From assembly GCA_007123105.1 (NCBI GenBank), contig SKNY01000110.1:1-33538 (forward strand): DNA of 33,538 nt. The letters run 5' to 3'. This DNA is from Salinarchaeum sp. (GTDB taxonomy: Archaea > Halobacteriota > Halobacteria > Halobacteriales > SKNY01). Positions 5,800 to 28,440 of this stretch are shown one piece after another. Every line of letters begins with the position of its first letter. Positions within the stretch are counted from its first letter, which is position 1. Under the pieces are notes generated by a model. It had not been told where the DNA came from. It searched no databases and saw only the letters and a list, made by a program, of their open reading frames with translations. The translations under genes were made by a program, and so were the position numbers.

Positions 5800-5802
5800 G
5801 CT

Positions 5803-7782
5803 ATGACTCGGCATGAGAGTGGTTCGAATCGTCTGACGCGACGTCAGCAGATCGGCGGGACCGGCGCGGTGTTGCTCGGGTTCTCCGCCGGCTGTCTCGG
5901 GGGCGACGAAGACCCCGACGACATCGACAACGCCGACCTTGCAGATGACGCAGACGACGTCGACGGTCCTTCCGACGATGCCGACGTGACCGAGGACTAC
6001 GAACTCCACGACGTCAAGGCCCACTGGATGTATCACGGCGACCTGCCGCTCGACGCCCAGCACAACTTCTACGCCGAGGGCGGCGGCATTTCGGATAACG
6101 CCTGGTCGCTGACGCGGAACTACGAGATGGTCGTCCAGTCCGTGTATGACATGGAAATCCACGGGCTGCAGGTCGAGGATTGGACTTACGAACCCGGCGT
6201 GCTCGAGTTCACCTTCCACGACGATTTCTACTGGTGGAGCGGCGATCGTGTCGAGGCCGACGACTACCTCATGCAACTCGAGTTCGAGGACTTCTACTGG
6301 GGCGGGGACGATTTCGACCTTCACGAATCGATCGTGTCAGCCGAGCGGGTAGACGACCTCACCGTTCGACTCGCCCTGGGCGACTCCTGGCACGAGGCCT
6401 GGGCGTTCGAGGAGACGATTCTCGACACCAATCTCGGTCACAGCCGGACTTACTATGAACCGTGGCTCGAAGAATTTGAGGACGCACCGGATCTCGATGC
6501 GGTCGAAGACATCCGAGCTGACATCGAGAACGATCAGATCACCGATGACGAGATGCTCGTGCATACGAACAATTCGTTGTACGAATTCCGCTACGACGGG
6601 TCGATCGGTGGCGTCGAGGAGGAACACTACGATCTCGAGTTAGTCCCCGAGAAAAATGGAAACGTCCGTCATTTCGCAAACCCCGACAATCACGACCACT
6701 TGCCGGACGTTAAATATCACCGACTCGAGTTGCGTGCCCACCGCGATGAACGCCACGGTCCCGAACAGGAACTATTCCGTCAACAGGAGATTCCGGTCGC
6801 AGAGGGAATTGAATTCCCGGACGTCGTCGTCGAGGCCCAAGAGGGCGAGCTTCCCTTCGAGACCGAAATCCTGCAATATCGCGCGCGAACCGACGACGAG
6901 GGTGGGATTAGTTTTAATCACCTCACACCTCCGAGCGATGACCCGCGCTTTCGGCGCGCCATCGCCTACCTGACGGACAACACGACGTGGGAGATGAACC
7001 CCGAGTCGTTCCCCGTCGAGTATTACCATCCGTATCTCTCCGACGAGGAACTTTACGATTGGACGAGCGAGGAAGTGATCGACGCGTTCACCGACTACCA
7101 CTACGATGAAGTCGCCGTCGACGAGGCAGAAGCCGAACTCGAGGCAGGCGGTTACGAGCGCGACGCCGACGGCAACTGGTTGTTCAAGGAGGACGGAGAA
7201 GAAGGCGAGGCCGGCGAGCCCATGGATTTCGACGTGTACACCCACGAATGGATGAGATACGTCCCGGATCTCGGGAGCGACTGGATCGCAGACCTCGAGG
7301 ATTTCGGTATCAGCACGACCTGGTTCGCCGAGTGGCACGACGATGGCGACTGGACGTTCTTCTACGGCTACACCGGAGGCGTCCGCCCCGACTACGCCTT
7401 CAACGCGATCTTCCGGGAAGAGCTGGGCTGGGAATGGTCTCGTCGGGTGTACGAAGTCCCGAGTACGATTCTCGCACCGCCATTCCTCGAGACCGCAGAA
7501 GCTGGGGCGTCGATGGACGACTGGGAGGTGTACGATGTCGGTGCAATGACCGATCGATTGCCGGTCACGACCGACGAGGACACCCACCAGGATCTCAGCG
7601 ACCAGCTTGCGTGGGTCGTCAACCAGACGGTTAATCACTTCAGCACGGCGACGCCGATCCGTCATCAAGTCACCAACGCCGAGCGGTGGCACTGGCCGGC
7701 GATCGAGGACGCCCCCGAACGGTGGCGCGACGAAGTGACGCGGGTTGGCGCTCGCGTGTTGCAGTACGCTGGCGAAGACTAA
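5803..7782 (+). CDS. Family-5-like solute-binding lipoprotein, copy 1 (SBP1)
   Basis: 659 residues. The leader LTRRQQIGGTGAVLLGFSAGC carries twin arginines and a lipobox (Cys31), followed by a tether of about 35 residues rich in Asp. The mature part resembles extracellular solute-binding proteins of ABC transporter family 5 (oligopeptide/sugar type): HDDFYWWSGDRVEADDYL matches the family's W-x-G-x-PVTA-D-D region, RFRRAIAYLTDNTTW its RxA-x-AYAID region, and EAELEAGGYERDADGNWLF its substrate-lobe helix. It should bind a solute outside the cell while anchored to the membrane. No permease or ATPase gene lies within the window. It is divergent from the aldo/keto reductase and 136 nt before the same-strand SBP2, with which it shares long identical stretches such as APPFLETAEAGASMDDWE, so the two are a recent tandem duplication. 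The ligand is unknown. Confidence 0.85.
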   Translation: MTRHESGSNRLTRRQQIGGTGAVLLGFSAGCLGGDEDPDDIDNADLADDADDVDGPSDDADVTEDYELHDVKAHWMYHGDLPLDAQHNFYAEGGGISDNAWSLTRNYEMVVQSVYDMEIHGLQVEDWTYEPGVLEFTFHDDFYWWSGDRVEADDYLMQLEFEDFYWGGDDFDLHESIVSAERVDDLTVRLALGDSWHEAWAFEETILDTNLGHSRTYYEPWLEEFEDAPDLDAVEDIRADIENDQITDDEMLVHTNNSLYEFRYDGSIGGVEEEHYDLELVPEKNGNVRHFANPDNHDHLPDVKYHRLELRAHRDERHGPEQELFRQQEIPVAEGIEFPDVVVEAQEGELPFETEILQYRARTDDEGGISFNHLTPPSDDPRFRRAIAYLTDNTTWEMNPESFPVEYYHPYLSDEELYDWTSEEVIDAFTDYHYDEVAVDEAEAELEAGGYERDADGNWLFKEDGEEGEAGEPMDFDVYTHEWMRYVPDLGSDWIADLEDFGISTTWFAEWHDDGDWTFFYGYTGGVRPDYAFNAIFREELGWEWSRRVYEVPSTILAPPFLETAEAGASMDDWEVYDVGAMTDRLPVTTDEDTHQDLSDQLAWVVNQTVNHFSTATPIRHQVTNAERWHWPAIEDAPERWRDEVTRVGARVLQYAGED

Positions 7783-7887
7783 TTGGGTCGCTCGCGGTTG
7801 CGGGACGATATTGAGGGTTTCTCTCTCACGGTCCTTTTGAGTTATATGAACCATTAACTATAATAATCATAACAGAAATATTGGGGA

Positions 7888-7894
7888 TTTAAAT
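7888..7894 (+). promoter_or_regulatory. TATA box of SBP2
   Basis: TTTAAAT in an AT-rich stretch ends 24 nt before the SBP2 ATG. This spacing predicts transcription starting at or within a base or two of the ATG. SBP2 therefore has its own promoter and is not only read through from SBP1. Confidence 0.6.
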
Positions 7895-7918
7895 GATGGT
7901 AGTGAGTTATCTCATCAC

Positions 7919-7935
7919 ATGGTTCGTCGAACCAT
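7919..7935. promoter_or_regulatory. Palindrome overlapping the SBP2 start codon
   Basis: The arms ATGGTTCG and CGAACCAT flank a single T, so the first six codons of SBP2 form a perfect 8-bp inverted repeat. If the transcript is leaderless, this would be a hairpin at the very 5' end of the mRNA or an operator over the start site. Confidence 0.5.
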
Positions 7936-9940
7936 AGATTGCACCCGATTGACCCGCCGGCAGCAACTCGTTGCCTCGAGCGCAGTCCTTGGCGGCACGC
8001 TCGCTGGCTGCCTCGGAGATGATGAAGAACTCGCCGATGACGTGGACGATGGCGACGATATGGTGGACGACGAAGACGATACGGTGGTGGAGGATGACGA
8101 CGATCCGATCGAAGATGATGGCGACGACGATGACGTACCGGCTGACGATACCGCAGTCGTCGAACTCCAAGATGTGACTGCCCACTGGATCTACCACGGT
8201 GACCTGCCGCCGGACATCCAGCACAACAACTACGCGGAAGGCGGCGGCATCTCGGACAATGCGTGGGGGATGTCGAGTAATTACCAACTCGTCGTCCGTT
8301 CTGTCTACGACAACGAGATTTACGGCATGTTGATCGATGATTGGTCTTATTCGCCTGGCGTGCTGGAATTTTCCCTCCACGACGATTTCTACTGGTGGAG
8401 CGGGGACCAGGTGACCGTCGACGATTACCTGATGCAGCTCGACTTCCAGGATTATCTCTGGGGCGGGGATGATTTAGACGCCTTTGCGGAAGTGGTTTCT
8501 CGGGACCGCGTCGATGATAACACGCTTCGGTTCGCGCTCGGTGATTCCTGGCACGAGGATTGGGCCTTCGAGGAGACGATCCTCGAGACCCAGATCGCGC
8601 ATAGTCGGGTATTTTACGAACCGTGGCTCGAACAATTCGAGGACGCCCCGGATCTCGATGCCGTCGAAGATATTCGAGACGACGTCAACGATGATCAGAT
8701 TACGGATGACGAGCGGTTGGTCCACACGAATAATACGCTCTTTGAATTCCGCTATGACGGCTCGATCGGCGAGGTGACCGAGGAATCGTTCACCTTCGAA
8801 CTGGTCCCGGAGAAGAACGGGAACGTCAGACATTTCGCCAATCCCGACAACCATGACGTGCTCCCGAATGTCAAATATCACCACCTCGAAATCCGGGCTT
8901 ACCGGGACGAGACCCGGATCCCAGCCGAGGAACTCTTTGACACGCAAGAAAAGCCCATGCTCGAGGGTGAGGGCCATCCGGATTACATCGTCCGTGCGAT
9001 CGATCGCGATCTCGATTTCGAGGCGGACGTCTTTGCCTTTCGCCGTGGGCCAAACGATATGGGGGGCATGCAATTCAATCACCGGTCCCATCCCGGTGAC
9101 AATCCACATTTCCGCCGAGCGATGGCCTATCTTACGGACAACACGACATGGGATCCCCATCCAGAAGCCCAGAGTGTCGAATATTTCCATCCGTATCTCT
9201 CCGATGAAGAACTATTCCAGTGGCACAGCGACGATGTCATTGACGCGCTCACCGACTACGGGTATGACGAGATGCGATTCGATGACGCCGAAACCGAACT
9301 GGTTACCGGTGGCTTCGAACAGGACGCGGACGGCAACTGGTTGTTTGCCGAAGACGGCGAAGAAGGTATGGCAGGCGAACCGATGGACTTCGACGTCCAC
9401 TCACCGGAGTGGATGGTGTACGTCGCCGATCACGGGAGCGACTGGATTGCAGATCTCGATGACTTCGGGATCAGCACCACGTGGTTTGCAGAAGATTTCT
9501 CCGTCGAGGATGACTGGACGTTCATGTACTCCTATACCGGGGGTACCACGCCGGATCACGCGTTCAATTTCATCTTTAACGACGAGGTGGCGACTTGGTC
9601 CCGGCGATACTACAACATCCCCTCGACGGTACTCGCACCGCCATTCCTCGAGACCGCGGAAGCTGGAGCGTCGATGGACGACTGGGAGGAGTACGACACA
9701 GCAGCGATGGCTGACCGGCTACCGGTGACGACCGATGAAGAAATTCACCGCCAGTTGAGTGACGAGTTATTATGGGTGACGAACCAGCTATGTCCGCACT
9801 ACAGTACGGCACCGGCGTTACGCCAGGAGGTCGCAAACGTCGACCGCTGGCACTGGCCGTCGATGGAAGATACGCCGGTTCGGTGGTGGAACACCGGAAA
9901 ACGCGCCGGCGCCCGCGTCCTGCAGTACCACGGCGACTGA
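7919..9940 (+). CDS. Family-5-like solute-binding lipoprotein, copy 2 (SBP2)
   Basis: 673 residues. The leader LTRRQQLVASSAVLGGTLAGC has twin arginines and a lipobox (Cys31), then an Asp-rich tether of about 45 residues. The mature protein follows SBP1 closely end to end: DDFYWWSGDQVTVDDYLMQL, EDAPDLDAVEDI, ELVPEKNGNVRHFANPDNHD, HFRRAMAYLTDNTTW and TAEAGASMDDWEEYD. Differences cluster in the tether and in a few loops, for example near FAEDFSVEDDWTFMYSYTGG, where ligand contacts might lie. It probably shares the transport machinery of SBP1, which is not encoded here. Its own TATA box and a start-codon palindrome suggest independent control. It converges with the aminotransferase gene, one nucleotide apart. 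The start is fixed by the TATA spacing and the leader. Confidence 0.85.
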   Translation: MVRRTIDCTRLTRRQQLVASSAVLGGTLAGCLGDDEELADDVDDGDDMVDDEDDTVVEDDDDPIEDDGDDDDVPADDTAVVELQDVTAHWIYHGDLPPDIQHNNYAEGGGISDNAWGMSSNYQLVVRSVYDNEIYGMLIDDWSYSPGVLEFSLHDDFYWWSGDQVTVDDYLMQLDFQDYLWGGDDLDAFAEVVSRDRVDDNTLRFALGDSWHEDWAFEETILETQIAHSRVFYEPWLEQFEDAPDLDAVEDIRDDVNDDQITDDERLVHTNNTLFEFRYDGSIGEVTEESFTFELVPEKNGNVRHFANPDNHDVLPNVKYHHLEIRAYRDETRIPAEELFDTQEKPMLEGEGHPDYIVRAIDRDLDFEADVFAFRRGPNDMGGMQFNHRSHPGDNPHFRRAMAYLTDNTTWDPHPEAQSVEYFHPYLSDEELFQWHSDDVIDALTDYGYDEMRFDDAETELVTGGFEQDADGNWLFAEDGEEGMAGEPMDFDVHSPEWMVYVADHGSDWIADLDDFGISTTWFAEDFSVEDDWTFMYSYTGGTTPDHAFNFIFNDEVATWSRRYYNIPSTVLAPPFLETAEAGASMDDWEEYDTAAMADRLPVTTDEEIHRQLSDELLWVTNQLCPHYSTAPALRQEVANVDRWHWPSMEDTPVRWWNTGKRAGARVLQYHGD

Positions 9941-9941
9941 G

Positions 9942-11177: not shown

Positions 11178-11225
11178 GCGGGTAGTTACCAGGAGTCCTG
11201 TATGGTTCTTTCCCCGGTCAAAGCC

Positions 11226-11232
11226 TATAAAT
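11226..11232 (+). promoter_or_regulatory. TATA box of the tRNA-Arg gene
   Basis: TATAAAT ends 24 nt before the first base of the tRNA, the normal archaeal spacing. Read on the other strand, ATTTATA lies about 50 nt before the aminotransferase ATG, so it may act in both directions. Confidence 0.65.
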
Positions 11233-11256
11233 TGGCGTCGCGGCAAGCGCACATGA

Positions 11257-11355
11257 GGGCACGTAGCTCAGTCCGGACAGAGCATCGGACTTCTAACCCG
11301 GCGCCTCCCCGGGGGAGCCATCCGACGGTCGCGGGTTCAAATCCCGTCGTGCCCG
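11257..11355 (+). tRNA. tRNA-Arg(TCT) with a 24-nt intron at position 37/38
   Basis: The acceptor stem GGGCACG pairs with CGTGCCC, followed by discriminator G at 11355. The D arm is GCTC/GAGC and the T arm GCGGG-TTCAAAT-CCCGT. The anticodon stem TCGGA (11285-11289) pairs with TCCGA (11321-11325), and the anticodon TCT is at 11292-11294. The intron is 11296-11319. The precursor folds into a textbook bulge-helix-bulge: central 4-bp helix CTTC (11290-11293) with GGAG (11314-11317), 3-nt bulges TA^A and CC^A with the cuts marked, and an intron hairpin CCCGG/CCGGG with a 7-nt loop. The spliced product is 75 nt. CCA is not encoded. It would read AGA, and AGG by wobble. Confidence 0.93.
11296..11319 (+). 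other. tRNA intron removed by archaeal splicing endonuclease
   Basis: 24 nt between anticodon-loop positions 37 and 38, with both cut sites inside symmetrical 3-nt bulges, as EndA requires. The intron itself is a GC-rich hairpin and codes for nothing. Confidence 0.88.
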
Positions 11356-11577
11356 TCCGTTGCGGAGGCCGGGGGGAATCGCATGCAGGTGGAGCGTTCA
11401 GGGACCGTTGCAATCCTGGTAACCTTGGTGCTGAACGGGTCGCGTGTGCTGGTTCGGCTCCGTACCGCATCCTCCGAGGGTGAATGATCAATGGTCCGGT
11501 GAGCCGAGCAACGACTGAGCCCGGCGTCTATCTTCTTGACGAAAATGACTCCATTGAATCCGCAGAGGGCGCGGGGA

Positions 11578-12456: not shown

Positions 12457-12479
12457 CGTCTATTGTTTCAATAATCCCC

Positions 12480-14699
12480 TCATCCACTCAAATCTGCCCG
12501 CCGCAGGAACTGCGCATTAACGGCGACAATTACCGTACTCACCGACATGAGTACCGCACCGATTGCGGGTGAGAGGAGGATCCCAATCGGCGCGAGGATC
12601 CCTGCCGCCAACGGGAGGGCAAATACGTTGTAGCCGGCGGCCCAGACGAGATTCTCTTGCATTTTTCGGTAGCTCTTCCGACTCAATCGAACCAGGTGTG
12701 CCACGTCACGCGGATCGTTTTCGACGAGGACGATGTCCGCCGACTCGACCGCCACATCGGTCCCCGAGCCGATGGCAATTCCCACATCAGCACGGGTAAG
12801 TGCAGGCGCGTCGTTCACCCCATCCCCGACCATCGACACGAGATTGCCTTGCTCTTGTAGCTCGATGATTTTCTTGTCCTTGTCTACGGGGAGCACCTCG
12901 GCGAAATACGTGTCAATTCCAAGCTCTTCGGAAACCGCGCGAGCCACGTCCTCGGAATCGCCTGTGAGCATGGCCACCTCCACATCCATCCTGTGGAGGG
13001 CGTCAATTGCCTCGTAGCTTGCATCCCGAATAACGTCTGCCAAGGCAACTGCGCCAACAGCTTCTCCGCCACGAATCAGGTACACGACTCCTTGCCCACG
13101 GTCGCCCGCCTGCTCGGCAAACTGTGCGATTTCCTCGGGTGGTGCCACGTTGAGATGACGGAGGAGGTTCGGACCGCCGACGTACACCTCCTCACCCGTC
13201 TGAATGGGATTGTCACCGACACCCTGTCCCCCCTCAGAAGCGAGCGTTGCCCGCACGCCACGACCTTCGAGCGCCTCGAAGCCACGGACACTCGGCACGG
13301 ACAACCCGCGATCCTGCGCCTCCTCACGGATCGCCTGGGCGATCATGTGCTCGGAATCGCGCTCGGCCCCCGCCATCACGCCGACGAGTTCGTCTTCGTC
13401 CCACTCATCAGTCGTGACGATCTCCACGACACCTTGTTCACCCTTGGTCAGGGTCCCCGTCTTGTCGAAGACAATGACGTCCAGGTTTCGGGATTCCTCC
13501 ATCGCAATCCGATCCCGAATGAGCATCCCGTTGCGTGCGGCCATCGTCGTATTGATGGCGACGACCAAGGGGACGGCCAACCCAAGGGCATGGGGACAGG
13601 CGATCACCAACACCGTGACGACCCGCTGAATCGTGTAGAGACCGAACCCCACCGCAAAGCTCCACGCTATCGCCGTCACAACCGCAACGGCGATGGCTGC
13701 ATAAAACAACCACCCGGCAGCTCGATCCGCAAGAACTTGCGTGCGTGACTTACTTTCCTGGGCCTCTTCGACCAGGCGCATGATCCCGGACAGAGTGGTT
13801 TCATCGCCAGTCGCCGTCACCCGAACGCGAAGGCTCCCCTCCCGGTTCGTCGTGCCGCCGATCACCTCGTCTTCGGGTTCCTTCTTGACGGGGCGGGACT
13901 CGCCGGTGATCATCGCCTCCACAACGTTGGACTCGCCTTCCTCGACGATGCCGTCAGCCGGGATGTTCGCTCCTGGCCGGACAAGCACGAGATCGTCTTC
14001 CGCGAGTTCGTCAACTCGAACCTCTTCAACCTCACCGTCCTCCGTTACCCGCTCGGCGGTATCGGGCATCAGTGCCGCGAGTTCGTCCAGTGCTCCCGAG
14101 GCCCGTCGGACACTTCGCATCTCAATCCAGTGACCAAGTAGGAAAATCACGATCAGCGTAACGAGTTCCCAGAAGAGCGGTTCCCCGATGTCCAAGGTGA
14201 CTGCAGCAACGCTGTAGACAAAGGCGACTGTGATGGCCAGCGAAATCAGTAACATCATTCCCGGCTCGCGGTTCCGCGCCTCAACCGCGCCCATGCGCAG
14301 GAACGGGATGCCCCCGTAGACGAATACCACCGCCCCGAGAATCGGCGCTAGAAACTGGCTGCCAGGAAACGTAATCGCTGTATATCCAAACCAGTCCTGG
14401 AGCATTTCAGCGTAATAGAGGACCGGCAATGAGAGGACGAGACAGACGAAAAACCGCTGTTTGAACATTTCCTCGTGGCCAGAATGGTCCATGTGCGCCT
14501 CGTGATCGTGGTCGTCGTGATGGTGTTCCTCCCCTACGTCCTCGGATTGAACGGCTCGATTCGAATCGGGCACAGCCCGATCTAACCCACAAACGCGACA
14601 ACATGGACACTGTCGATCAGTCGGCTTCCTGTGATCCTGATCGGCCCCATGGTGATGGGTACGATCTCGCTCCGAGTGATCACCCATTGCGAGATTCAC
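12480..14699 (-). CDS. copB: Copper-translocating P1B-type ATPase, CopB-like
   Basis: 739 residues. The start is a GTG whose last two bases overlap the stop of the upstream SHOCT gene (GTGA), implying translational coupling; an in-frame ATG lies four codons later. The N-terminus replaces a ferredoxin-like metal domain with a His-rich region ([28 protein letters not shown]) and a Cys cluster CPCCRVCG (Cys31, 33, 34, 37). The ATPase core is complete: actuator TGES at 265-268, the transport-site motif CPH at 368-370 that marks the CopB (P1B-3) group, the phosphorylated Asp412 in [14 protein letters not shown] in the nucleotide domain and [10 protein letters not shown] in the hinge. About eight membrane segments are expected. 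It should pump Cu (possibly Cu2+ or Ag+) out of the cytoplasm at ATP cost. Confidence 0.92.
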
Positions 14700-15046
14700 T
14701 CCTCGTCCCGCAATCGCGTTCGACGGGTTTCGAACTCCTCGTCAGTGAGGTCACCACGGGCATACGCGAGCCGCAGTTCTTCGAGAGCAGGGTCACCGCT
14801 CCGATCCGCTGTACGGACGACTCTACGATATAGCAGGTACCCAACCGCGAGGACGACTGCAAGCGGCACGAGCCACATGAGCATCATACCCCAGACGGAT
14901 ACCGGCTCGCCATCCCACCCCCACATGTGTCCACCTTCCCACATTCCCATGATGGGCCAGGCCAACACCATCATCAGGACTGGGAGTAGCACGATGAGCG
15001 CAATGGCGATCAGAATTCCCTGCAGGACCTGATCATTACTCGCCAT
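14696..15046 (-). CDS. Small SHOCT-domain membrane protein
   Basis: 116 residues. Two hydrophobic segments ([20 protein letters not shown] and [20 protein letters not shown]) are joined by a Met/Trp/His/Gly-rich loop ([17 protein letters not shown]). The C-terminus [20 protein letters not shown] is a SHOCT motif, a short domain often found at the end of membrane proteins and thought to mediate association. It is the first gene of a two-gene unit with the CopB-type ATPase; its stop overlaps the ATPase start. The Met- and His-rich loop could bind copper. Its role as an accessory subunit is inferred from coupling only. Confidence 0.82.
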
Positions 15047-15404
15047 AGCTGGTGATTGAGGCTCGTCTCAGATAGCTCCTCGCCCGGTCCAGCGGACAAA
15101 CGATGATCTGTGCCTCGTCACAGACCGGTTCGGATCAACCTATTTTGTCCTTCTAAACAATACTCATTGCAATATAAATGGGCTGAAGCAACAATCCTCC
15201 ACTGGTGTGTTCACCGTCTGTATGCATATCTTGAATTCTATCCTAATGGTGAACAATACCGAGGTATTCCGCCATCACATTCCGCTGAAAGCAGCCACTA
15301 AATCACTCGCCTACTCCGAAACGTCAGTGCAGGCAAAGGACATAGCATGGGTTTGTTACTTCTGGGAGCAGTCCTTTACCCGAGGTTACGCACCAATCGA
15401 GTAG
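15047..15404. other. AT-richer spacer between the copper unit and a methyltransferase
   Basis: 358 nt with clearly lower GC than the surroundings, and no gene I can support. Short plus-strand frames (15110-15301 and 15207-15404) lack acidic haloarchaeal composition and recognisable motifs. ATATAAAT near 15171-15178 could be a TATA element in either direction. It lies about 125 nt before the copper unit start, so that transcript would have a long leader. Confidence 0.45.
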
Positions 15405-16139
15405 ATGAACCCAGAAGAGGACGCGTACGGCCACGCGATGTATGGTAGATATCAAGGAAATGATAGTTTTGAAATCTTTGAACGAGACGACGGGTACATC
15501 GGCCTCTCGGACGACCCATCGACGTACTTTCAAGAGTACGAGGAGTGGCCCGCCCGCCAACAGATCGCGATGGATCGCGTCCAGGGACGAATCTTGGATA
15601 TCGGCTGTGGGGCTGGGAGACATGCGCTCTATCTTCAGGAACAGGGCTTCCACGTGATCGGTATCGACACACCACCGAAAGCCATCGAGGTTTGTGATCA
15701 GCGGGGTCTCGACCAGACCCACGTTTTCGGGATCACCGAGGTCGACGAACTCGACGGTGAGCCATTCGGAACAGAACTACTCCTCGGGAACAACTTCGGA
15801 CTCCTGGAGACACGCGACCGTGCTCCGGACATCCTCGAAATGCTATCCGGCGTGACCACCACTGACGCGACACTTCTCGCCGAGAGCATGGACCCGAATT
15901 CGGAGAATCCATCCGAGGAGTGGCGGGAGTACCACGAGGCAAACGTAGAAAACGGCCGGTTACCGGGGGTGTTGAGGATGCGAATCCGATACAAACAGTA
16001 CGCGACCGACTGGTTCGATTACTTGATGGCTTCACGAAAGGAGATGCGAGCGATCTTCGATGCTTCTCCGTGGGGACTCTCCGGATTCCTCGGCGAAGGA
16101 GTTGGTTATGTCGGAATTGCGGGAAAAGATGTTCAGTGA
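15405..16139 (+). CDS. Class I SAM-dependent methyltransferase
   Basis: 244 residues. Motif I, RILDIGCGAGRHALYL (about residues 62-77), followed by GFHVIGID with an acidic residue at the end of strand 2, binds S-adenosylmethionine. ELLLGNNFGLLE occupies the position of motif IV. The acceptor is not evident. The C-terminal part (MRIRYKQYATDWFDYLMASR) resembles small-molecule methyltransferases, but I cannot name a subfamily. There is no signal peptide, so it is cytoplasmic. Just downstream on the same strand is the decayed half of a different methyltransferase; the two do not look like one gene split in two, because the first is complete. Confidence 0.85.
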   Translation: MNPEEDAYGHAMYGRYQGNDSFEIFERDDGYIGLSDDPSTYFQEYEEWPARQQIAMDRVQGRILDIGCGAGRHALYLQEQGFHVIGIDTPPKAIEVCDQRGLDQTHVFGITEVDELDGEPFGTELLLGNNFGLLETRDRAPDILEMLSGVTTTDATLLAESMDPNSENPSEEWREYHEANVENGRLPGVLRMRIRYKQYATDWFDYLMASRKEMRAIFDASPWGLSGFLGEGVGYVGIAGKDVQ

Positions 16140-16154
16140 TTCCAACGAACACCT

Positions 16155-16702
16155 GATCTAGCTTTGCAACATCAGCTACAAAAGGCGAATCTCATCATCC
16201 GAGACCTCGTCGATCCGACGTCCGAAAAATCGTTTGACGCCGTGGTATCTGTCTACGGCGTTCAATGCGCCCCGACCAGGAGCGGGCGGCCCGGGATTTG
16301 CTTTGAGTAAGTAATCCCGGTGGGACGATCGGTCTGGCCTGCCCGATTCCCTCGAGATGGAGCGGGGACTGGTTGGCCACCCATGCAGATTCCGTTCCGC
16401 CACTACCTACCGTCGAGTCACCCCTTCAATGGGGACTGGACGAGATTCTCGGCGCCGGCGTCCGGTCGATCGAACATCAGCACCGAATCGCACTCCAATA
16501 CTATCGGTCGGTCGATCACGCCATCGAGGTGGTCAGCACGTTCTTCGGTCCGACCATCCGGCCTCTCGCGGCATGCGATCCCGCAGAACGAGAGGATCTC
16601 CTTGACGGTCTGTGGGCCGTCATGTGTCGATTCAATCGGGCGAACGACGGGACCGCGATCGTCGAAAACGACTACCTCCAAACCATCGCCATCACCGACT
16701 GA
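16155..16702 (+). pseudogene. Frameshifted, N-truncated SAM-dependent methyltransferase
   Basis: The first readable piece, QKANLIIRD to KSFDAVVSVYGVQCAP, matches the motif II to IV region of UbiE-like (Methyltransf_11) enzymes. After a frameshift near 16272 it continues DQERAARDLL, reaches a stop, then resumes as GGTIGLA, the post-motif turn of this family. The final open frame (from about 16311, stop at 16700-16702) reads HADSVPPLPTVESPLQWGLD, then YRSVDHAIEVVSTFFGPTIR and FNRANDGTAIVENDYLQTIA, as in their C-terminal halves. The glycine-rich SAM-binding N-terminus, about 70 residues, is absent. The last 110 residues keep strong haloarchaeal codon bias, so the damage is recent. If annotated alone, 16373-16702 would look like an intact small hypothetical protein from a TTG start, which I think is misleading. 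Confidence 0.7.
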
Positions 16703-16797
16703 GGTATTGGCACGCTTCTCCCGGTCGCGATACTGGGCGGATATCCTCCGTTATTTCCCTCCGAAACCTTCCTTGTCGTGTCCGATCCTTCCTCCCC

Positions 16798-17172
16798 ATG
16801 GCCGAGGATATCGCGGAGCTCCAGGAACGATACGAGCGGTTCGTCGCCGAACGGTATTGGGAGGACTACCACGCACCGAAGAACCTGGCGGCCTCGGTTG
16901 CCGTCGAGGCCGGAGAGCTCCTCGAGGTGTTCCAGTGGCACGATGTCCTCCCGGCGGCTGCCTACGAGGACGCAGCGGACGTCGAGGCGGCCGCCGCCGA
17001 CGAGCTCGCGGACGTCTTCATCTACGGGCTCGGCCTCGCCGCTGCCCTCGACATCGACGTCCGGGAGGCCATTGCGGCGAAGCTCGACCGGAACGAGCGA
17101 CGGTTCGACCCCGAGACGGCCGCCGCCATCAGCCGGGAGTTCGATCGATGGCGTGAGTCCACCGATGAGTAA
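16798..17172 (+). CDS. MazG-like nucleotide pyrophosphohydrolase
   Basis: 124 residues from the ATG at 16798. A longer open frame upstream overlaps the methyltransferase remnant and lacks coding character. The metal-binding helices of the all-alpha NTP pyrophosphatase fold are visible: SVAVEAGELLEVFQW (Glu37, Glu40, Glu43) and ADELADVFIYG (Glu69, Asp72). These enzymes hydrolyse (d)NTPs to NMP and pyrophosphate and act as house-cleaning enzymes in the cytoplasm. Single-domain archaeal members often prefer dCTP-like substrates, but specificity cannot be read here. It converges with the aldolase gene, 9 nt apart. Confidence 0.87.
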   Translation: MAEDIAELQERYERFVAERYWEDYHAPKNLAASVAVEAGELLEVFQWHDVLPAAAYEDAADVEAAAADELADVFIYGLGLAAALDIDVREAIAAKLDRNERRFDPETAAAISREFDRWRESTDE

Positions 17173-17181
17173 CACCCGCGG

Positions 17182-17940
17182 CTAGTCCGTCTCCGTCAGA
17201 AACGGCCGAATCCCCTCGCGAGTGAAGCTGAGATCGGCACCGAGCAGGAACCACCGGAACCCGCGTTCGATCCGTTGGTCCATGCGCTCGGGCGTTCTGC
17301 CGCCGATGCCCGGACACACGCCGTGGGCGTTGGCTGCGGTCCGCACCGTTTCGACGGCCGTGACGACGGACTCGTGGTCCTTCTCCCCCGGGTGACCCAT
17401 CGCGGCCGAGAGGTCGTTCTCGCCAATGAACGCGACGTCGATGCCCTCAACGGCCAGGATCTCCTCGACCCGGTCGACGGCCGTCGGCGTCTCGATCTGG
17501 ACGACGACAATCGTCTCGTCGTTGGCAGCGCGAACGTATTCGTCGAAGCGTTCCCCGTAATCATTCGCCCGAACGGTGCCGGCAACGCCGCGGGTTCCTG
17601 CTGGCGGGAACCGCGCTGCTGCCACCGCCCGTTCGGCGTCGGACGCCGACTCCACACCAGGGACGATGATCCCGCGCGCCCCGACATCGAGCGCTTGTTT
17701 TGCCGCCCCCGCGCACGCGGCGTCGACCGACGGCAACCGGACGAGCGGCGTCGCAGCCGGTTCGATCGCCCGGACGATGGCCTCGATCCGCTCCGGAGCG
17801 GCCGGGGCGTGTTCGGTATCGACGGCCAGCCAGTCGATGGGGGTCCTCGCGAGTACTTCGGCGACGCGTGGACTTCCGGATAAGATCCAGGCGCCGGCAA
17901 CGACATCACCGCGATCCACTGCTTGTTTCGTCGGTTCCAT
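17182..17940 (-). CDS. HpcH/HpaI-family class II aldolase
   Basis: 252 residues. This family cleaves 2-keto-3-deoxy or 4-hydroxy-2-oxo acids to pyruvate and an aldehyde using a divalent metal. Conserved elements are AVDTEHAPAAPERI (Asp41, Glu43 and His44), PLVRLPSVD (Arg68, pyruvate binding), GARGIIVPGVESASDAE, VVVQIETPTAVDRVEEI with the metal-binding Glu, and VAFIGENDLSAAMGHPG with the metal-binding Asp. FIGEND replaces the more usual FIGPND. Members act on 2-keto-3-deoxy-L-rhamnonate, 2-keto-3-deoxyglucarate or hydroxyphenylacetate-pathway intermediates; a sugar-acid role would suit this region but is inference. It is divergent from SBP3 across a 276-nt spacer with an inverted repeat. Confidence 0.88.
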   Translation of the reverse strand: MEPTKQAVDRGDVVAGAWILSGSPRVAEVLARTPIDWLAVDTEHAPAAPERIEAIVRAIEPAATPLVRLPSVDAACAGAAKQALDVGARGIIVPGVESASDAERAVAAARFPPAGTRGVAGTVRANDYGERFDEYVRAANDETIVVVQIETPTAVDRVEEILAVEGIDVAFIGENDLSAAMGHPGEKDHESVVTAVETVRTAANAHGVCPGIGGRTPERMDQRIERGFRWFLLGADLSFTREGIRPFLTETD

Positions 17941-18005
17941 CTATGTCCAGCAACAACAGCACCTATTATCAGTGATGGGGCGGTTCGCTTCTACCTCATT
18001 TCGAC

Positions 18006-18027
18006 GGGAACGGGCCGGTTCCCGTTG
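18006..18027. promoter_or_regulatory. Inverted repeat in the aldolase/SBP3 divergent spacer
   Basis: The arms ACGGGAAC and GTTCCCGT (8 bp, perfect) flank GGGCCG. It lies 66 nt upstream of the aldolase start and about 190 nt before SBP3. Symmetry and position fit a dimeric regulator binding site, more likely acting on the aldolase. Confidence 0.45.
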
Positions 18028-18216
18028 TGAACTGTCGTGCGTTCTTATCAGATTCGACACACCTCTCCGCACCCATCGTACAGATCGCCACGACACCGAC
18101 TTTCTCTTTCCACACCCGACGATCGATCGACTAGTCAAACGAATGATCATCGCCGGTCCAATTGTCTTTATTGAAACAGAATTTTCGATTAGGTAACAGT
18201 TATCTTCTGGGGACGG

Positions 18217-20214
18217 ATGAATGCGGTTGTGCCTGGTAAAACCAACCACCTGCGAGCAGACACGAAGACACGCCTCCCCTTCCGCCGTCGGCGCTACGTT
18301 GCCGCCATGGGGCTGGTCGGTACGGGCGTCGTTGCCGGCTGTCTTGGTGACGATGAGGTAGACCCCGACGCGACGGACACGGACGACGTCGACGCCGATG
18401 ATACGGACGACGTATTGCCGGCCGATGACGACGACGCCGATGATGCCGACGACCAAGCCGAAACCGATGACACCGATGATGCACCTGAGCCCATCGAGCG
18501 CCACGATGTCACCGCGTACTGGGAACGGGGCCCGCCCGTACCGGCAGATGTCCAGTACGCTCGGTATGGCGGGAATACCCCGGCCTGGTACGACAACCGC
18601 CACCAGTATCGAATGGCTGGGCGATCGTTTCGAGATTTCGAAGTCTACGGTGAACTCATCGAATCGATCGATTACCAACCTGGCATCCTTGAAGTAACGT
18701 TCCGCGACGACATCTTTTGGTGGAGCGGGAAAGTCGTTGACGCCACGGACTTCCAGGTCGATAAAGACCTTGCCGATTGGCATTCCGGTGGCGAAGATCT
18801 CGACAATACGCCGAACATCGTTGCCCGTGAACAACTCGACGATCGTACCGTCCGACTCGCCCTCGCGGATACGTGGCGGGAGGACTGGGCGCTCCAGCAA
18901 ACGCTCATCGAAGGCGGCGCAAACGACGTCCTCGCAAGTTCCGAATGGACACAGCCGTGGCTCGAACAGTACGAGGACACGGGAGCTGACATGGATGCAG
19001 TCGGCGACTTGCGCGAAGAACTTTCAGAGGTTCAAGTCGTCGACGACGAGGATCTCGTCCACCAACTGCACATCCCCTGGGAGTTCCGTATCGACGGTTC
19101 GATCGGTAACGTAGGCGAGAATTACTGGCAGTTCGAACTCGTCCCCGAAAAGAACGGGGTGAAGCGGCGATGGGTCGAAGACATTAATTACACTGGCTGG
19201 CGGATTACGGCCGTCGAGGAATCCGGCATTCGCGGGGACGAGCGATTCCTGCAAGGCGATATGCCATGGCGTGGTGTCTCCATTCTCGACCTGGAGGAGG
19301 ACATTCCGTTTCCCATCCGTGAACTCGGATTCGTGCGCGAGTTCGATCAGTGGGGGTGGACGATGAACGCCGAGGCGCATCCAACGGACAATCCATATTT
19401 CCGCCGCGCCTGGAACTTCGCCTGTCCGCGCGGTGACTTCGAGGCACCAGGGCGGGTCCCCCAGGACTTCTCGGGCCACCCGTACCTCACCGCAGCACGG
19501 GTCCGACAGTGGACGAGCGAAGCGGTCTTCGAGGCGCTTACTGATTATGGATTCGACGCCGAATGGGATCGCGCCGAAGCCGATCTGGAACGCGGCGGGT
19601 TCGAACGGAACGGTGACGGGGCGTGGCTCAGACAGGATGACGGTGAGCCGATTGACATCACCATTGGGACCTTCAACTGGATGGGATACGTTGCCGATCT
19701 TGGATCGGATTGGTACGCTGATTTCGAGGATTTCGGCATTTCGACCGAGGTCGTTACGGACACCTATGCGGACGACCCATGGACGGTCGAGGCCCAGTAC
19801 ATTGGCGGGTTGCTGCCGGAGTTTCTCTACAGCAGCGTGTTTGGTGAAGAAGGGCTCACGTGGGCAGCACCGAATCCGAACCTTCCCGAATCCGTCGAAG
19901 CACCGCCACTCGGCGAGACGGATGCACCCCAGGATGACTGGGTCGTCTACGATACCCGGGCGATGACGGACCGACTCGGGGTCACGGTCGACGATGACGC
20001 CTATCAGGACATGGTCGATCAGCTCACCTGGGTCGCCAATCAAGTGTGCCCTCGGACGCTCATGACCTCTCAAACCCAGATTCGGATCGTCAACGACGAA
20101 CGGTGGCACGTACCACTCGTCGAGGAGGCACCGCCCGAAAAATATCTCTGGCTGATGGAAGACCGGATGTGGCACAACGGACTCCTTTCCTACGTGCCCG
20201 AAGAAGACCGGTAA
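18217..20214 (+). CDS. Family-5-like solute-binding lipoprotein, copy 3 (SBP3)
   Basis: 665 residues. The leader is longer than in the other copies: FRRRRYVAAMGLVGTGVVAGC with Cys42, again Tat plus lipobox, then an Asp-rich tether of about 50 residues. It is the most divergent intact copy. It keeps RDDIFWWSGKVVDATDFQ, ELVPEKNGVKRRW, DNPYFRRAWNFA, EADLERGGFERNGDGAWL and DLGSDWYADFEDFGIST. It loses the AYLTDNTTW continuation and has a different C-terminus (TLMTSQTQIRIVNDERWHVP). These changes suggest a different ligand. It is divergent from the HpcH/HpaI aldolase and has no adjacent transporter genes. A start further downstream cannot be excluded, but this ATG keeps the full arginine-rich leader. 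Confidence 0.84.
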   Translation: MNAVVPGKTNHLRADTKTRLPFRRRRYVAAMGLVGTGVVAGCLGDDEVDPDATDTDDVDADDTDDVLPADDDDADDADDQAETDDTDDAPEPIERHDVTAYWERGPPVPADVQYARYGGNTPAWYDNRHQYRMAGRSFRDFEVYGELIESIDYQPGILEVTFRDDIFWWSGKVVDATDFQVDKDLADWHSGGEDLDNTPNIVAREQLDDRTVRLALADTWREDWALQQTLIEGGANDVLASSEWTQPWLEQYEDTGADMDAVGDLREELSEVQVVDDEDLVHQLHIPWEFRIDGSIGNVGENYWQFELVPEKNGVKRRWVEDINYTGWRITAVEESGIRGDERFLQGDMPWRGVSILDLEEDIPFPIRELGFVREFDQWGWTMNAEAHPTDNPYFRRAWNFACPRGDFEAPGRVPQDFSGHPYLTAARVRQWTSEAVFEALTDYGFDAEWDRAEADLERGGFERNGDGAWLRQDDGEPIDITIGTFNWMGYVADLGSDWYADFEDFGISTEVVTDTYADDPWTVEAQYIGGLLPEFLYSSVFGEEGLTWAAPNPNLPESVEAPPLGETDAPQDDWVVYDTRAMTDRLGVTVDDDAYQDMVDQLTWVANQVCPRTLMTSQTQIRIVNDERWHVPLVEEAPPEKYLWLMEDRMWHNGLLSYVPEEDR

Positions 20215-21320: not shown

Positions 21321-21322
21321 TC

Positions 21323-21997: not shown

Positions 21998-22027
21998 CGC
22001 GCATACGAACGGTTGGTGCGGTTCGGG

Positions 22028-23257: not shown

Positions 23258-23285
23258 TGATTCCGTTCCGTTTCGCCATCAGAGG

Positions 23286-23292
23286 TATATAT
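23286..23292 (-). promoter_or_regulatory. TATA box of the metallophosphoesterase gene
   Basis: ATATATA on the minus strand, ending 28 nt before the start codon in an otherwise GC-rich context, which fits a short or absent leader. Confidence 0.55.
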
Positions 23293-23323
23293 CGGTCGGA
23301 TTGGCCACACGAGGTATCGGGTG

Positions 23324-24661: not shown

Positions 24662-24715
24662 GCCGGCTCGTGGATAGTCCCGGGCATAGCTCTCTCGGTA
24701 GGGGTATTGTTTTGT

Positions 24716-24729
24716 AGCGTTCTAACGCT
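24716..24729. promoter_or_regulatory. Palindrome in the FAD oxidoreductase/GYD spacer
   Basis: AGCGTT and AACGCT arms with a 2-nt spacer. It is 55 nt upstream of the oxidoreductase start and about 90 nt upstream of the GYD gene, a good place for an operator serving divergent genes. Confidence 0.4.
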
Positions 24730-24776
24730 GTAAGACTCCTCCGTAGTATTATGGTCGTTGGTATCGTTTCACACGA

Positions 24777-24801
24777 GCGTCTCGAGTACGGATCGAGACG
24801 C
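24777..24801. promoter_or_regulatory. Strong inverted repeat just upstream of the GYD gene
   Basis: Perfect 9-bp arms GCGTCTCGA and TCGAGACGC with a 7-nt spacer, ending 18 nt before the GYD start codon. It could be an operator or, if transcribed, a leader hairpin. Confidence 0.5.
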
Positions 24802-24819
24802 CAACTACGGGAGCACCAG

Positions 24820-25116
24820 ATGTCAACTTACATTACCCTCGTCAACTGGACCCAGCAAGGGATCGAACACGTCACCGACAGTCCGGATCGCCTCGACAAC
24901 GCCAAAGAAGTCGCCGCCGATCATGGCGGCGAGTTCACGGACTTTTTCCTGACTTTTGGCGCGTATGATCTCGTCGTTATCACCGAATTTCCCGACGACG
25001 AATCCTACGCTCAGTTTGCGCTCGCGATCGGCAGCAGCGGCAACGTCAGCACCGAGACCCTCCGCGCCTTCACCGAGGAGGATTATCGCGATATCATTGG
25101 GGGTCTGTCCGCGTAG
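24820..25116 (+). CDS. GYD-domain protein
   Basis: 98 residues from the ATG at 24820 (MSTYITLVNWTQQG). An upstream in-frame start at 24751 would translate through the inverted repeat and is less likely. The protein is one GYD domain: YITLVNWTQQGIEHVTDSP, then FFLTFGAYDLVVITEFPDDE, where GAYD is the motif that names the family, and GNVSTETLRAF. This is a ferredoxin-like alpha/beta fold of unknown biochemical role, perhaps binding a small molecule. It is followed after 39 nt by a CBS-pair protein on the same strand; both could be small sensors transcribed together. Confidence 0.85.
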   Translation: MSTYITLVNWTQQGIEHVTDSPDRLDNAKEVAADHGGEFTDFFLTFGAYDLVVITEFPDDESYAQFALAIGSSGNVSTETLRAFTEEDYRDIIGGLSA

Positions 25117-25155
25117 CTACCTGCGAGTGTGTACTATCACGAACCCGAATCATCC

Positions 25156-25590
25156 ATGCCCGAGATCAGAACGTTCGTCAGAGAAGATATCGTTAGCGCC
25201 ACGTTCGATACGCCCGTCGTCGACCTCGCCAGACAGCTCGACGACGAGGGCGTCGGTAGCATCGTGATCGTCGAGAGGGAGGAACCCGTCGGCATCGTCA
25301 CCGATCGAGACCTCGTCCTCGAGGTCATCGCCGAAGGACGCGACGTCGAGACGCTTACGGCCGCCGACGTGATGAGCGAGGATCTCGTGACGGTCGATGC
25401 TGACGTCGGTATCTTTGAGGTCATCCGTACGATGGAGGAGGCACACGTTCGGCGCATTCCGGCAATCGACGAGGACGGGTGCCTCGCCGGCATGGTGACC
25501 TTCGATGACTTTGTGGTTCTGCTCGCTCGTGAACTCAAACTCCTTGGTGACGTGATCGAGGCGGAGCTTCCGCCGTACGAGCACGTCTGA
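25156..25590 (+). CDS. Stand-alone CBS-pair protein
   Basis: 144 residues from the ATG at 25156; the frame is open 27 nt further back without a better start. Two CBS motifs fill the protein: VDLARQLDDEGVGSIVIVER with GIVTDRDLVLEVI, and ADVMSEDLVTVDADVG with RIPAIDEDGCLAGMVTFDDF. Such pairs bind adenine nucleotides (AMP, ATP, SAM) in the cleft between repeats and usually regulate a partner protein. No catalytic domain is fused. It follows the GYD gene on the same strand and converges with SBP4, 8 nt away. Confidence 0.9.
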   Translation: MPEIRTFVREDIVSATFDTPVVDLARQLDDEGVGSIVIVEREEPVGIVTDRDLVLEVIAEGRDVETLTAADVMSEDLVTVDADVGIFEVIRTMEEAHVRRIPAIDEDGCLAGMVTFDDFVVLLARELKLLGDVIEAELPPYEHV

Positions 25591-25598
25591 ACCCCCGG

Positions 25599-27596
25599 TC
25601 AGCCGTCGTACATGCAGTTACCGAAGTGGACCGTTCGGAACACCACGTCGCTGTGGGTGGCGGGCACTTCTTCGAGCGGCGGCCAGAACCACTCCTCCTG
25701 GTTGAGGCAGACGATCTGTCCGCCCGGCGAGACACCGTAGTGGTTGACGGCCTGATTGACAACCCAGGTCAGTTCGTCGACCAATTCCTGGTGCATCTCC
25801 TCGTCCGTCGTCACCGTGAGTCGCTCGGTCATGGTCGCCACTTCGTACTCGACCCAGTCGTCCGTTGGATCGCCCGGACCCGCCGTCTCGAGGAACTCCG
25901 GCGCCAGCACCGTGCTCGGGATGTTATACTCCGGCCGGGCCCAGTCTTCGTCAAGATAGACGTTTCCGAGCGCGTGTTCTGGCGTGCCACCGCCGGTGTA
26001 GGTAAACAGGACTGTCCAGTCCTCCGGAAGTTCGAGCAGCGTTTCGAGGCCGATACCGAAGTCATCCATGTCCGCATACCAGTCGGTTCCGTACTCGGGG
26101 ACCCATCCCATCCAGTCGTGGGTGGAGAATTCGAACTCCATCGGCTCGCCGGCATCGCCCTCGACGCCGTCCTCTTGGAGCAGCCAACGACCATCGGCGT
26201 TCCGCTCGTAGCCACCGGCCTCGAGTTCGGCTTCGGCCTCGTCAAAGCGCATCTCGTCCCAGCCATAATCGGTGAACGCATCGATCACCGCGTCGCTGAC
26301 GTACATCTCGAGTTCGTCATCGGAGAAGTACGGGTGGTTGGACTCGATTGGGATGTTCTCGATATAGCCCTCCCAGGCGGTGTTGTCGACAAGATAGGCG
26401 AACGCTCGCCGGAAATGGACGTCATCGGAGGGATGGACGTCGTGGTTGAACTGGATGCCGCCGATCGTATTCGGCGGGCGAAAGTATTCGATCTGTTCGA
26501 TCTCGAAGTCGAACTCGCCGGCAACCGCCTGTTCGAGCGTTTCTGGCGCCTCCGGGCCGACGAACGGCTGTACCTGTTCTTGATACCGTTCGGTCGTGAG
26601 CACGTCGTGTTCTTCGTGGACCTCGTAGCGGGCATACCGAAAATTCGGCAGATGCTCGCGATTGTCGTAGTTGGCGTGATGGCGGAGATTACCGTTCTTC
26701 TCCTGGACGAGTTCGAACTGCCAATAGTCTTCGCCGACTTCCCCCACAGCACCGTCCAACCGGAATTCGTAGATCGAATAGAAGAGTTCGGCCAGTTCCT
26801 CGTCAGATTCGATGAACTGCTCTTCGTGTTCCTCCCGTAGGTCCTCGATCGCATCAAGATCTGGTGCGTCCCCGAACTCCTCAATCCAGCCGTCACTGAC
26901 GTTTCGGCTCATGTTGATGAGGAAATTCTCGACGGTCTGGTAGATCGCCCAATCCTCGTGCCAGGCGTCCACCACGGCCAATCTGGCCGTCAGGTCGTCG
27001 ATGCGCTCCATGGAAACGATGTCGACGTGGTAATCGAGATCGTCATCGCCCCACAGGTAGTCTTCATACTCCAGTTGGTTGAGGAAGTCATCGACGGTGA
27101 CCTGCTCGCCGCTCCACCAGTAGAAGTCGTCGTGAAACGTGAGCTGGAGTACGCCTGGTTCGTAGGACCAGTCCTCCACGAGGTGTCCGTAGTGGGAGAA
27201 GTCGTAGTTCGACCGGCCGATGAGGGGGGCGGGTCGCCAGGGAAAGTCCTCTGGTGGGTTTGGATCGGCGTAGGGATTGTACTGGGTGTCGGCCGGAAGT
27301 TCTGCGTAGTGATGGTTCGCAAACGATGCGGTGGCGTCGAGGACCTCCGGCACCTGTTCGTCCGGATCGATGTCATCCGTGTCGTCCCCGTCATCCATGT
27401 CGTCTCCGTCGTCCGGATCGTCGATATCGTCCGCATCGTCCGGATCGTCGATATCGTCCGCGTCGTCCGTGTCGTCGGTATCGTCAGCGTCGTCGGCCTC
27501 ATCGTCCCCGAGACAGCCGGTAAATGCAGCGAATCCACCGAGACTGCCTGCCTGGAGTAGCCGGCGACGGTCGAGCCAAGAGCTATCTCGTACCAT
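25599..27596 (-). CDS. Family-5-like solute-binding lipoprotein, copy 4 (SBP4)
   Basis: 665 residues. The leader LDRRRLLQAGSLGGFAAFTGC has the Tat arginines and a lipobox with Cys28. The tether, about residues 31-80, is almost only Asp with spacer residues and is encoded partly by a 27-bp tandem repeat. The mature part follows SBP1/SBP2: HDDFYWWSGEQVTVDDFLNQ, GDAPDLDAIEDLREE, HFRRAFAYLVDNTAW, EAELEAGGYERNADGRWLLQ and PSTVLAPEFLETAG. The end differs (FRTVHFGNCMYDG in place of ARVLQYAGED), so the ligand may differ. Behind its promoter on the same strand lies a dead relative (27722-28440), closer to SBP4 than to the others, so this was a tandem duplication. No transporter membrane genes are nearby. 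Confidence 0.85.
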   Translation of the reverse strand: MVRDSSWLDRRRLLQAGSLGGFAAFTGCLGDDEADDADDTDDTDDADDIDDPDDADDIDDPDDGDDMDDGDDTDDIDPDEQVPEVLDATASFANHHYAELPADTQYNPYADPNPPEDFPWRPAPLIGRSNYDFSHYGHLVEDWSYEPGVLQLTFHDDFYWWSGEQVTVDDFLNQLEYEDYLWGDDDLDYHVDIVSMERIDDLTARLAVVDAWHEDWAIYQTVENFLINMSRNVSDGWIEEFGDAPDLDAIEDLREEHEEQFIESDEELAELFYSIYEFRLDGAVGEVGEDYWQFELVQEKNGNLRHHANYDNREHLPNFRYARYEVHEEHDVLTTERYQEQVQPFVGPEAPETLEQAVAGEFDFEIEQIEYFRPPNTIGGIQFNHDVHPSDDVHFRRAFAYLVDNTAWEGYIENIPIESNHPYFSDDELEMYVSDAVIDAFTDYGWDEMRFDEAEAELEAGGYERNADGRWLLQEDGVEGDAGEPMEFEFSTHDWMGWVPEYGTDWYADMDDFGIGLETLLELPEDWTVLFTYTGGGTPEHALGNVYLDEDWARPEYNIPSTVLAPEFLETAGPGDPTDDWVEYEVATMTERLTVTTDEEMHQELVDELTWVVNQAVNHYGVSPGGQIVCLNQEEWFWPPLEEVPATHSDVVFRTVHFGNCMYDG
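27409..27461. repeat. 27-bp tandem repeat in the SBP4 acidic tether
   Basis: Positions 27409-27434 and 27436-27461 are identical over 26 nt at a 27-bp period, encoding DDADDIDDP twice. Shorter imperfect Asp-codon repeats continue on both sides. Replication slippage here would change tether length by whole codons, keeping the frame. Confidence 0.75.
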
Positions 27597-27621
27597 ATAG
27601 ATCCCTCATGGGCTCCTGGTA

Positions 27622-27630
27622 TAGTTATTA
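27622..27630 (-). promoter_or_regulatory. Probable TATA element of SBP4
   Basis: TAATAACTA on the minus strand, ending about 25 nt before the SBP4 ATG. The whole 27597-27720 spacer is unusually AT-rich, so the exact element is uncertain. Confidence 0.4.
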
Positions 27631-27721
27631 GGGTAATTGTAGGTATTAATTAATCAATTAGGTAAAATAATCCCGAGATATCTATTTTATCACAACATTC
27701 CTGCTAGTTTTCCCCGATATT

Positions 27722-28440
27722 TCAGGACGTTATAACGGGTTGCTGAAAGCCGACTTCCGGGAGTCCTGCGGCGACCGCTTTTCCATTCAGCCAGAACCAG
27801 GTCTCCTGATTGGTCCCCGTGGCAGTCGGTCCCTGCACGGCGGTGTGGTGATTAGACATGTGGTTGACGACCCAGACGAGCTCATCGACGGGCTGGTGGT
27901 ACCTCTCTTCGTCGACCGTTCCGGTGAGCCGCTCGACGGACGGAAGCAGGCGATGCTGCCGACCTCGACGTCGACCACACCCTGGAGGACCGAGTCCAAC
28001 AACGAGGAAGGTGTGTCGAAGGCGCACGGCTGGACCTGCCCTTCGAATCGTTCGGACGCGGCGATGGTCGCATCCTCGTGGGTCTGATATCGTGCCCGTG
28101 CAACGTTCGGCCATTCTCGAAGGCATCTGAATTCGCGTGATAGCGGAAATATCCGTTTTCCTCCTGGGTGAGTTCACTCTCCCAGTACTCCGCACCAATG
28201 GATTGACCGCCCCGTCGAGCCGGAACTCGTCGGGTTGACGGACACATTGAACAACTCATCGTCGTCGGTTTCGTTGGTATCGTCGGTGTCATTGCTGTCA
28301 TCAACCGCTTCGATATCGTCGGCATTGCCGGCTCGAGGTCATGTTGTACGCCGGCAAGCATCGTCGTGTCGCCGAGTTCGTAGGGAGCCACCGCCGTCGG
28401 TTCGGATTGGTCATTCAATGTTGTATCGTTGAACCCCATC
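27722..28440 (-). pseudogene. Rearranged dead copy of the solute-binding lipoprotein (SBP5)
   Basis: Homology to SBP4 continues in order but in changing frames and with two large internal losses. An acidic tether (NADDIEAVDDSNDTDDTNET, near 28250-28330) jumps to ELFNVSVN and EFRLDGAV, missing about 190 residues. A frameshift leads to YWESELTQEENGYFRYHANS (28125-28187). Next come ARYQTHEDATIAASERFEGQ and VQPCAFDTPSSLL with VVDVEVGSIACFRP. The sequence then jumps to RLTGTVDEERYHQPVDELVW and NQETWFWLNGK (27722-27931), missing about 200 residues. The Tat leader is not recognisable upstream. The C-terminal stop matches that of an SBP gene. It cannot make a working binding protein. Confidence 0.82.

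Follow-up and report, generated by a model that had tools for sequence, protein, structure and literature searches.

ABC importers are mostly described as having one receptor per pump, and a canonical Opp/Dpp locus consists of a solute-binding protein (SBP) gene, two permease genes and one or two ATPase genes. To our knowledge, the cases in which many receptors share a pump are mainly bacterial, and for many of them it is not clear which pump is the partner. Among the TctC-type expansions of orphan SBPs, Bordetella reaches up to 181 SBPs against at most four membrane sets and Rhodoplanes 434, and the shared use of one membrane component has been proposed for them (PMC5994714). In Borrelia burgdorferi, five OppA proteins feed one Opp transporter (PMC6719511). 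Haloarchaea possess SBP-permease-permease-ATPase loci (Halomontanus rarus, Haloarcula, Natrialba, Halomicrobium), in which the SBP adjoins its own transporter, as well as binding lipoproteins that are able to act without import, namely BasB and CosB of Halobacterium salinarum, whose partners are Htr transducers.

Here we describe an expansion of orphan SBPs in a haloarchaeon. Like the Bug/TctC proteins of Bordetella, Cupriavidus and Rhodoplanes (PMC5994714), these SBPs are lineage-specific, scattered and mostly orphan, with few membrane partners. However, Bug/TctC proteins are bacterial SBPs of tripartite tricarboxylate transporters, whereas those reported here are archaeal ABC family-5 lipoproteins, and they form a smaller family with an identifiable, SBP-less candidate transporter. 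With the Borrelia Opp system they share family-5 SBPs, differentially encoded, and one Opp-type ABC importer which they would feed; in contrast to the five Borrelia peptide receptors, there are about 19, probably for oligosaccharides, and none adjoins the transporter. The SBPs and permeases of the canonical haloarchaeal loci belong to homologous subfamilies (24.5% SBP identity over most of the protein, 41% permease identity), but in the present case the SBP lies apart from the transporter and occurs in many copies. Our literature search met no archaeal case of such an orphan SBP expansion, which is not proof of absence. Since bacteria already offer examples of SBP expansions with few transporters (Bug in Bordetella, OppA in Borrelia), we regard this one as a new archaeal variant.

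Solute-Binding Lipoproteins of the Window

The window, that is, the whole stretch of 33,538 nucleotides analysed, is contig 30 of a haloarchaeal assembly of 1.88 Mb in 122 contigs, with an estimated completeness of 67% and contamination of 0.29%. The initial annotation had claimed four intact paralogues of about 660 residues, and open reading frames were found at exactly these coordinates (Table 1), copies b-d being 41-66% identical to copy a. A dead copy had likewise been proposed at 27722-28440; tblastn recovers pieces of it in several frames, nearest to copy d (E=1.7e-13 and 3.2e-10), and the stretch 27791-27937 was also matched in the family-profile search of the genome. The leader remnant that had been suggested at 1886-2010 received no confirmation, tblastn being blank there and a short AGC-ADDDPDDVDEP-like stretch on the minus strand being all that was seen. 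Other genes of the window include an arylsulfotransferase-like gene (PF05935; 2234-3427, minus strand) near the orphan SBPs, and a large open reading frame (12480-14699, minus strand) which by its look we take to be a copper-type P-ATPase, with no bearing on the SBP finding.

Table 1. Coordinates of the solute-binding protein genes and related features in the window
Feature	Position	Strand	Basis
Orphan family-5 solute-binding Tat lipoprotein, copy a, 659 aa	5803-7782	+	ORF, family alignment; SBP_bac_5 28.1 bits
Orphan solute-binding Tat lipoprotein, copy b, 673 aa, in tandem with copy a	7919-9940	+	ORF, alignment, tree
Orphan solute-binding Tat lipoprotein, copy c, 665 aa	18217-20214	+	ORF, alignment; profile search of genome
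Orphan solute-binding Tat lipoprotein, copy d, 665 aa	25599-27596	-	ORF, alignment; SBP_bac_5 32.0 bits
Decayed family copy (pseudogene), pieces in several frames	27746-28228	-	tblastn with copy d
GH39-like gene adjoining the dead copy	28527-29912	+	Pfam PF01229, E=9.4e-7
HpcH/HpaI-type aldolase adjoining copy c	17182-17940	-	Pfam PF03328, E=1.8e-38
Possible leader remnant, unconfirmed	1886-2010	-	short lipobox-like plus acidic stretch, one frame

A twin-arginine pair and a GCLG lipobox followed by an acidic tether are invariant in all copies of the genome that retain their N-terminus. Among the 14 full-length copies the Asp-rich tether measures 36-69 residues, of which 47-62% are Asp or Glu, and core identity ranges from 34 to 67%. 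The initial description of a conserved core with varying loops is correct in part: two stretches of the core, residues ~108-128 and ~337-364 (numbered on the 25599 copy), are the most variable, but the identity of the core averages just 42.5%.

By Pfam scores, the proteins match family 5 weakly. Against SBP_bac_5 (PF00496), copies a-d obtain 28.1, 22.2, no score and 32.0 bits, short of the Pfam cut-off of 32.4 in every case, and one copy attains 34.4 bits only when stretches are summed across its open frame. None of the four thus passes the Pfam cut-off for SBP_bac_5, while profile comparisons assign the proteins to family 5 and a fold search with a poor model points the same way. The orphan profile aligns with transporter-linked family-5 SBPs in hhalign at E=1e-26 over 566 columns, which is the full length, and a joint profile matches TM1223, TM0031 and others with E down to 2.8e-31. 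Structure prediction gave a pLDDT of 32 from four sequences and of 50 from eleven; a fold search with the resulting poor model of copy d (pLDDT 50, TM ~0.4) returned family-5 SBPs as all its top matches (E=1.5e-12), spanning the full length of this low-confidence model. At the sequence level, the window proteins are family-5 solute-binding lipoproteins. An identity as Bug/TctC-type SBPs, which go with TctAB membrane proteins, is not supported, the homology being to family 5 instead.

An Old and Scattered Family

A profile of the four window proteins run against the genome identifies 18 close copies, of which the window holds four and contig ends truncate several, as well as one distant member; together they occupy 13 contigs. 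The distant member lies on contig 60, and contig 121 holds a broken fragment. The source genome's family forms one clade with full support, with the contig 60 member at its base. Copies a and b are sisters (support 100; dN 0.24 versus dS ~2.2), and close pairs show dN of 0.22-0.30 with saturated dS and a dN/dS of ~0.1, as expected under purifying selection. The low dN against a saturated dS indicates that the copies are old, maintained duplicates. Spread by a mobile element was rejected, given that the copies are 34-67% identical and each under purifying selection; an assembly artefact was also rejected, since divergence is too large and contamination is 0.29%. The fragment on contig 121 (G000:C121:6804-7184, G000 being the source genome) is degraded, with three stops, and beside the other decay suggests that copy loss is ongoing. 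Beyond AT-rich promoters, no common upstream motif is evident among the orphans.

The orphan clade of the source genome has no member in the 393 other genomes of the order covered by a 400-genome search, which scored three candidates per genome and therefore speaks to presence, not copy numbers. The four window proteins themselves found no relative in the genome collection, and a full-length orphan profile had no matches in 78 relatives. The latter failure is explained by the low identity of the relatives' family (~20%) together with noise from the acidic tether, as a tether-free profile succeeded. A later scan of the genome collection with transporter-linked SBPs returned eight named Halobacteria.

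A Single Matching Importer without a Receptor

Transporter genes had been reported as absent among the copies, and neither permease nor Opp-type ATPase genes occur in the window. The initial annotation would have given way to profiles at odds with an SBP identity or to a permease/ATPase set beside each copy. The profiles agree with that identity; no permease or ATPase adjoins any copy in the flanks scanned, and ~400 kb of flanks in the source genome and the same-genus genome G001 contain no Opp permease near any orphan. The sole ABC match close to orphans is an unrelated ATPase, 25% identical, on contig 72. In the assembly, PF00528 permeases are confined to contigs 42, 49, 74 and 91 and oligo_HPY ATPases to contigs 42, 74 and 91, which gives three Opp-type sets. 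Those of contigs 74 and 91 (C74, C91) each have their own adjacent classical family-5 SBP, unrelated to the orphans. Contig 42 (C42) carries a complete OppBCDF set at 14531-18912 (OppB at 14531-15535, then OppC, OppD and OppF to 18912), with neither an adjacent SBP nor a remnant of one. The canonical Opp/Dpp arrangement is therefore missing on both sides, with no permease or Opp ATPase around any copy and no SBP at C42.

This separation might be an effect of the assembly if the orphans' own transporters were missing from it, or the orphans might use unrelated importers, for instance those of C74, C91 or C49. With a completeness of 67%, 122 contigs and several copies at contig ends, further transporters may be absent. 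Nevertheless, most copies have several kb of permease-free assembled flank, and many sets would be required, yet the recovered two thirds of the genome hold one C42-type set. As for unrelated importers, C74 and C91 have their own SBPs, which the orphan-only profile does not recognise (no match at E=1). We consider either version unlikely.

Pairing of the Orphan Subfamily with C42-Type Transporters

The relationship between the orphans and C42 was explored through 33 C42-type loci fetched from relatives, whose OppB is 35-46% identical to that of C42. A profile built from the orphans only detects the adjacent SBP at 15 of 21 C42-type transporters in relatives, with E down to 1e-24; as a control, the 18 SBPs that accompany ordinary Opp sets (OppB 26-30%) all go undetected by it, even at E<=10. 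A wider profile finds an adjacent SBP at 31 of 34 C42-type loci, the exceptions being C42 itself, G001:C2 and a decayed locus in G049; because it was built with some of the transporter-linked SBPs that it detects, it is the orphan-only profile that provides independent evidence. Profile-profile comparison of the orphans with ordinary Opp SBPs gives E=7e-7 over 264 columns, far from the full-length match obtained with C42-type SBPs. Furthermore, when a single window protein was searched blind by tblastn in 72,556 plasmids, only two proteins matched, both of them Halomontanus rarus SBPs adjoining permeases 41% identical to C42 OppB. The trees of partnered SBPs and permeases co-vary (Mantel rho 0.69, 0/2000 permutations). 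Mirror-tree ranking places C42 at rank 17 of 36 for the window orphans, and so does not single it out, probably owing to their deep branch. Judging from homology and gene neighbourhood, the orphan SBP subfamily pairs specifically with the C42-type transporter subfamily in other haloarchaea.

Some of these loci have peculiarities of their own. In G049 (L095, G049:C1:2240000-2256000) a C42-type locus is decaying: OppB and OppC are intact (83% to G056), OppF is truncated, and OppD and the SBP are gone. In G061:C4 (L099), two different SBPs (4658-6658 and 13328-15505) lie on either side of one C42-type transporter, an arrangement that may represent a stage between a single receptor and many. Three family-5 SBPs are circularly permuted (L087:8948-10891 in G007, L089:9163-11049 in G058 and L090:8426-10291 in G028), such that ~65-90 residues which are C-terminal in unpermuted relatives sit N-terminally, directly past the lipobox; in the G028 protein, residues 66-129 correspond to 536-599 of the G053 SBP and residues 144-621 to its 70-538. 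In ~20 further genomes of the 400-genome search, the SBP matches break off at this same position of the model, ahead of a stop codon.

A Second Expansion in the Same Genus

The genome G001 contains about 15 orphan SBPs of ~750 residues, which belong to a different, longer clade and lie away from permeases (L163-L175), together with an SBP-less C42-type transporter (G001:C2, L102:3845-8183). Its SBP copies on C98 and C144 are apparently broken by in-frame stops. In the SBP tree, 14 G001 orphans form one clade (99), joined to two G061b SBPs (99). The permease tree groups G001:C2 with the G061b transporter (99) and adds C42 to this pair (97). The nearest relative of the G001 orphans and of the G001:C2 transporter is in both cases G061b, and mirror-tree ranking for these orphans, with their own link withheld, puts C2 first of 36 transporters. 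The arrangement is common to both genomes while the receptor clades differ, a pattern which suggests that the source genome and G001 underwent parallel receptor expansions around an inherited transporter type.

We are inclined, if only by a little, toward a broader scenario for this one genus. In this scenario, an importer that had lost its SBP became a hub for ~15-25 diverging, scattered receptors, with at least two origins from different SBP clades, and the breadth of the diet was changed by receptor duplication only.

Likely Ligands

The best solved relatives, by profile and rough fold, are the mannoside-binding TM1223 and TM1226 and the cellobiose-binding TM0031 of Thermotoga maritima and a Vibrio chitin-oligosaccharide-binding protein, all of family 5. 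They are ~15% identical to the orphans and have adjacent transporters; we know of no acidic tether or expansion among them. The neighbours of the orphans include two mannonate dehydratase-like (UxuA) and four MR/MLE-type sugar-acid dehydratase-like genes, in addition to a sulfatase, GH39, HpcH/HpaI and RraA-like aldolases and Gfo/Idh oxidoreductases. The sulfatase lies near the copy on contig 116, and an FG-GAP/UnbV_ASPIC lipoprotein (L041:5277-7048, G000:C98) has two MR/MLE genes and an orphan SBP, itself truncated, close by. Enrichment of Gfo/Idh genes near orphans is not significant (p=0.06), and so the sugar reading leans mainly on homology. As far as relatives and neighbours indicate, the ligands are probably oligosaccharides or fragments rich in uronates.

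The same neighbourhood raises the question of whether import is involved at all. The orphans might be surface capture proteins that take no part in transport and instead keep cells or pieces of polysaccharide close to enzymes outside the cell, and both the great length of the acidic tethers (36-69 residues) and the glycoside hydrolase and sulfatase genes nearby would suit such a role. However, acidic tethers are also present on transporter-linked SBPs of G001 (e.g., L088), and the retention of a matching SBP-less importer would be left unexplained. We find this very unlikely.

A Proposed System of Many Receptors for One Importer

The initial annotation had listed a shared distant transporter among its possible readings and had named two findings that together would favour it, a single distant permease/ATPase set and divergence of the ligand pockets; the complete SBP-less OppBCDF set of the matching subfamily on another contig provides the first of these and supports the reading. 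Against 18 close and one distant SBP stands one C42-type set, in a genome 67% complete. Since about 19 scattered SBPs thus accompany one matching importer without an SBP of its own, we propose that many catchers feed one pump and that these family-5 receptors probably serve the single C42 OppBCDF importer. Each lipid-anchored SBP, from its separate scattered gene, would be exported by its Tat signal and held at the membrane's outer face by the long acidic tether. The receptors would differ in their ligands, most likely oligosaccharides or else sugars that contain uronate, and would dock by turns on the one ABC importer (C42:14531-18912).

In an alternative scenario, the orphans represent sensing receptors, not transport receptors, and work together with chemotaxis transducers in the manner of BasB and CosB. 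SBP-mediated chemotaxis occurs in haloarchaea (PMC3579733), and a sensing role has been suggested for the orphan SBPs of the Bordetella and Rhodoplanes expansions (PMC5994714). Yet the 67%-complete source genome has no match to MCPsignal (PF00015), a search that was positive in Haloferax volcanii. The lack of a chemotaxis transducer among the recovered genes weakens a BasB/CosB-like role, and in other genomes the closest relatives of the family are linked to transporters; we hold sensing to be quite improbable.

The proposal of one importer with many receptors has some consequences. Surveys limited to complete SBP-permease clusters would overlook such systems. Here, a single identifiable candidate partner is combined with an independent replicate in a sister genome that involves another receptor clade, so that the rules by which receptors dock on the importer, and the diversification of ligands, can be tested directly. 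For a polysaccharide-feeding archaeon of modest genome, such a hub might be a means to broaden its diet.
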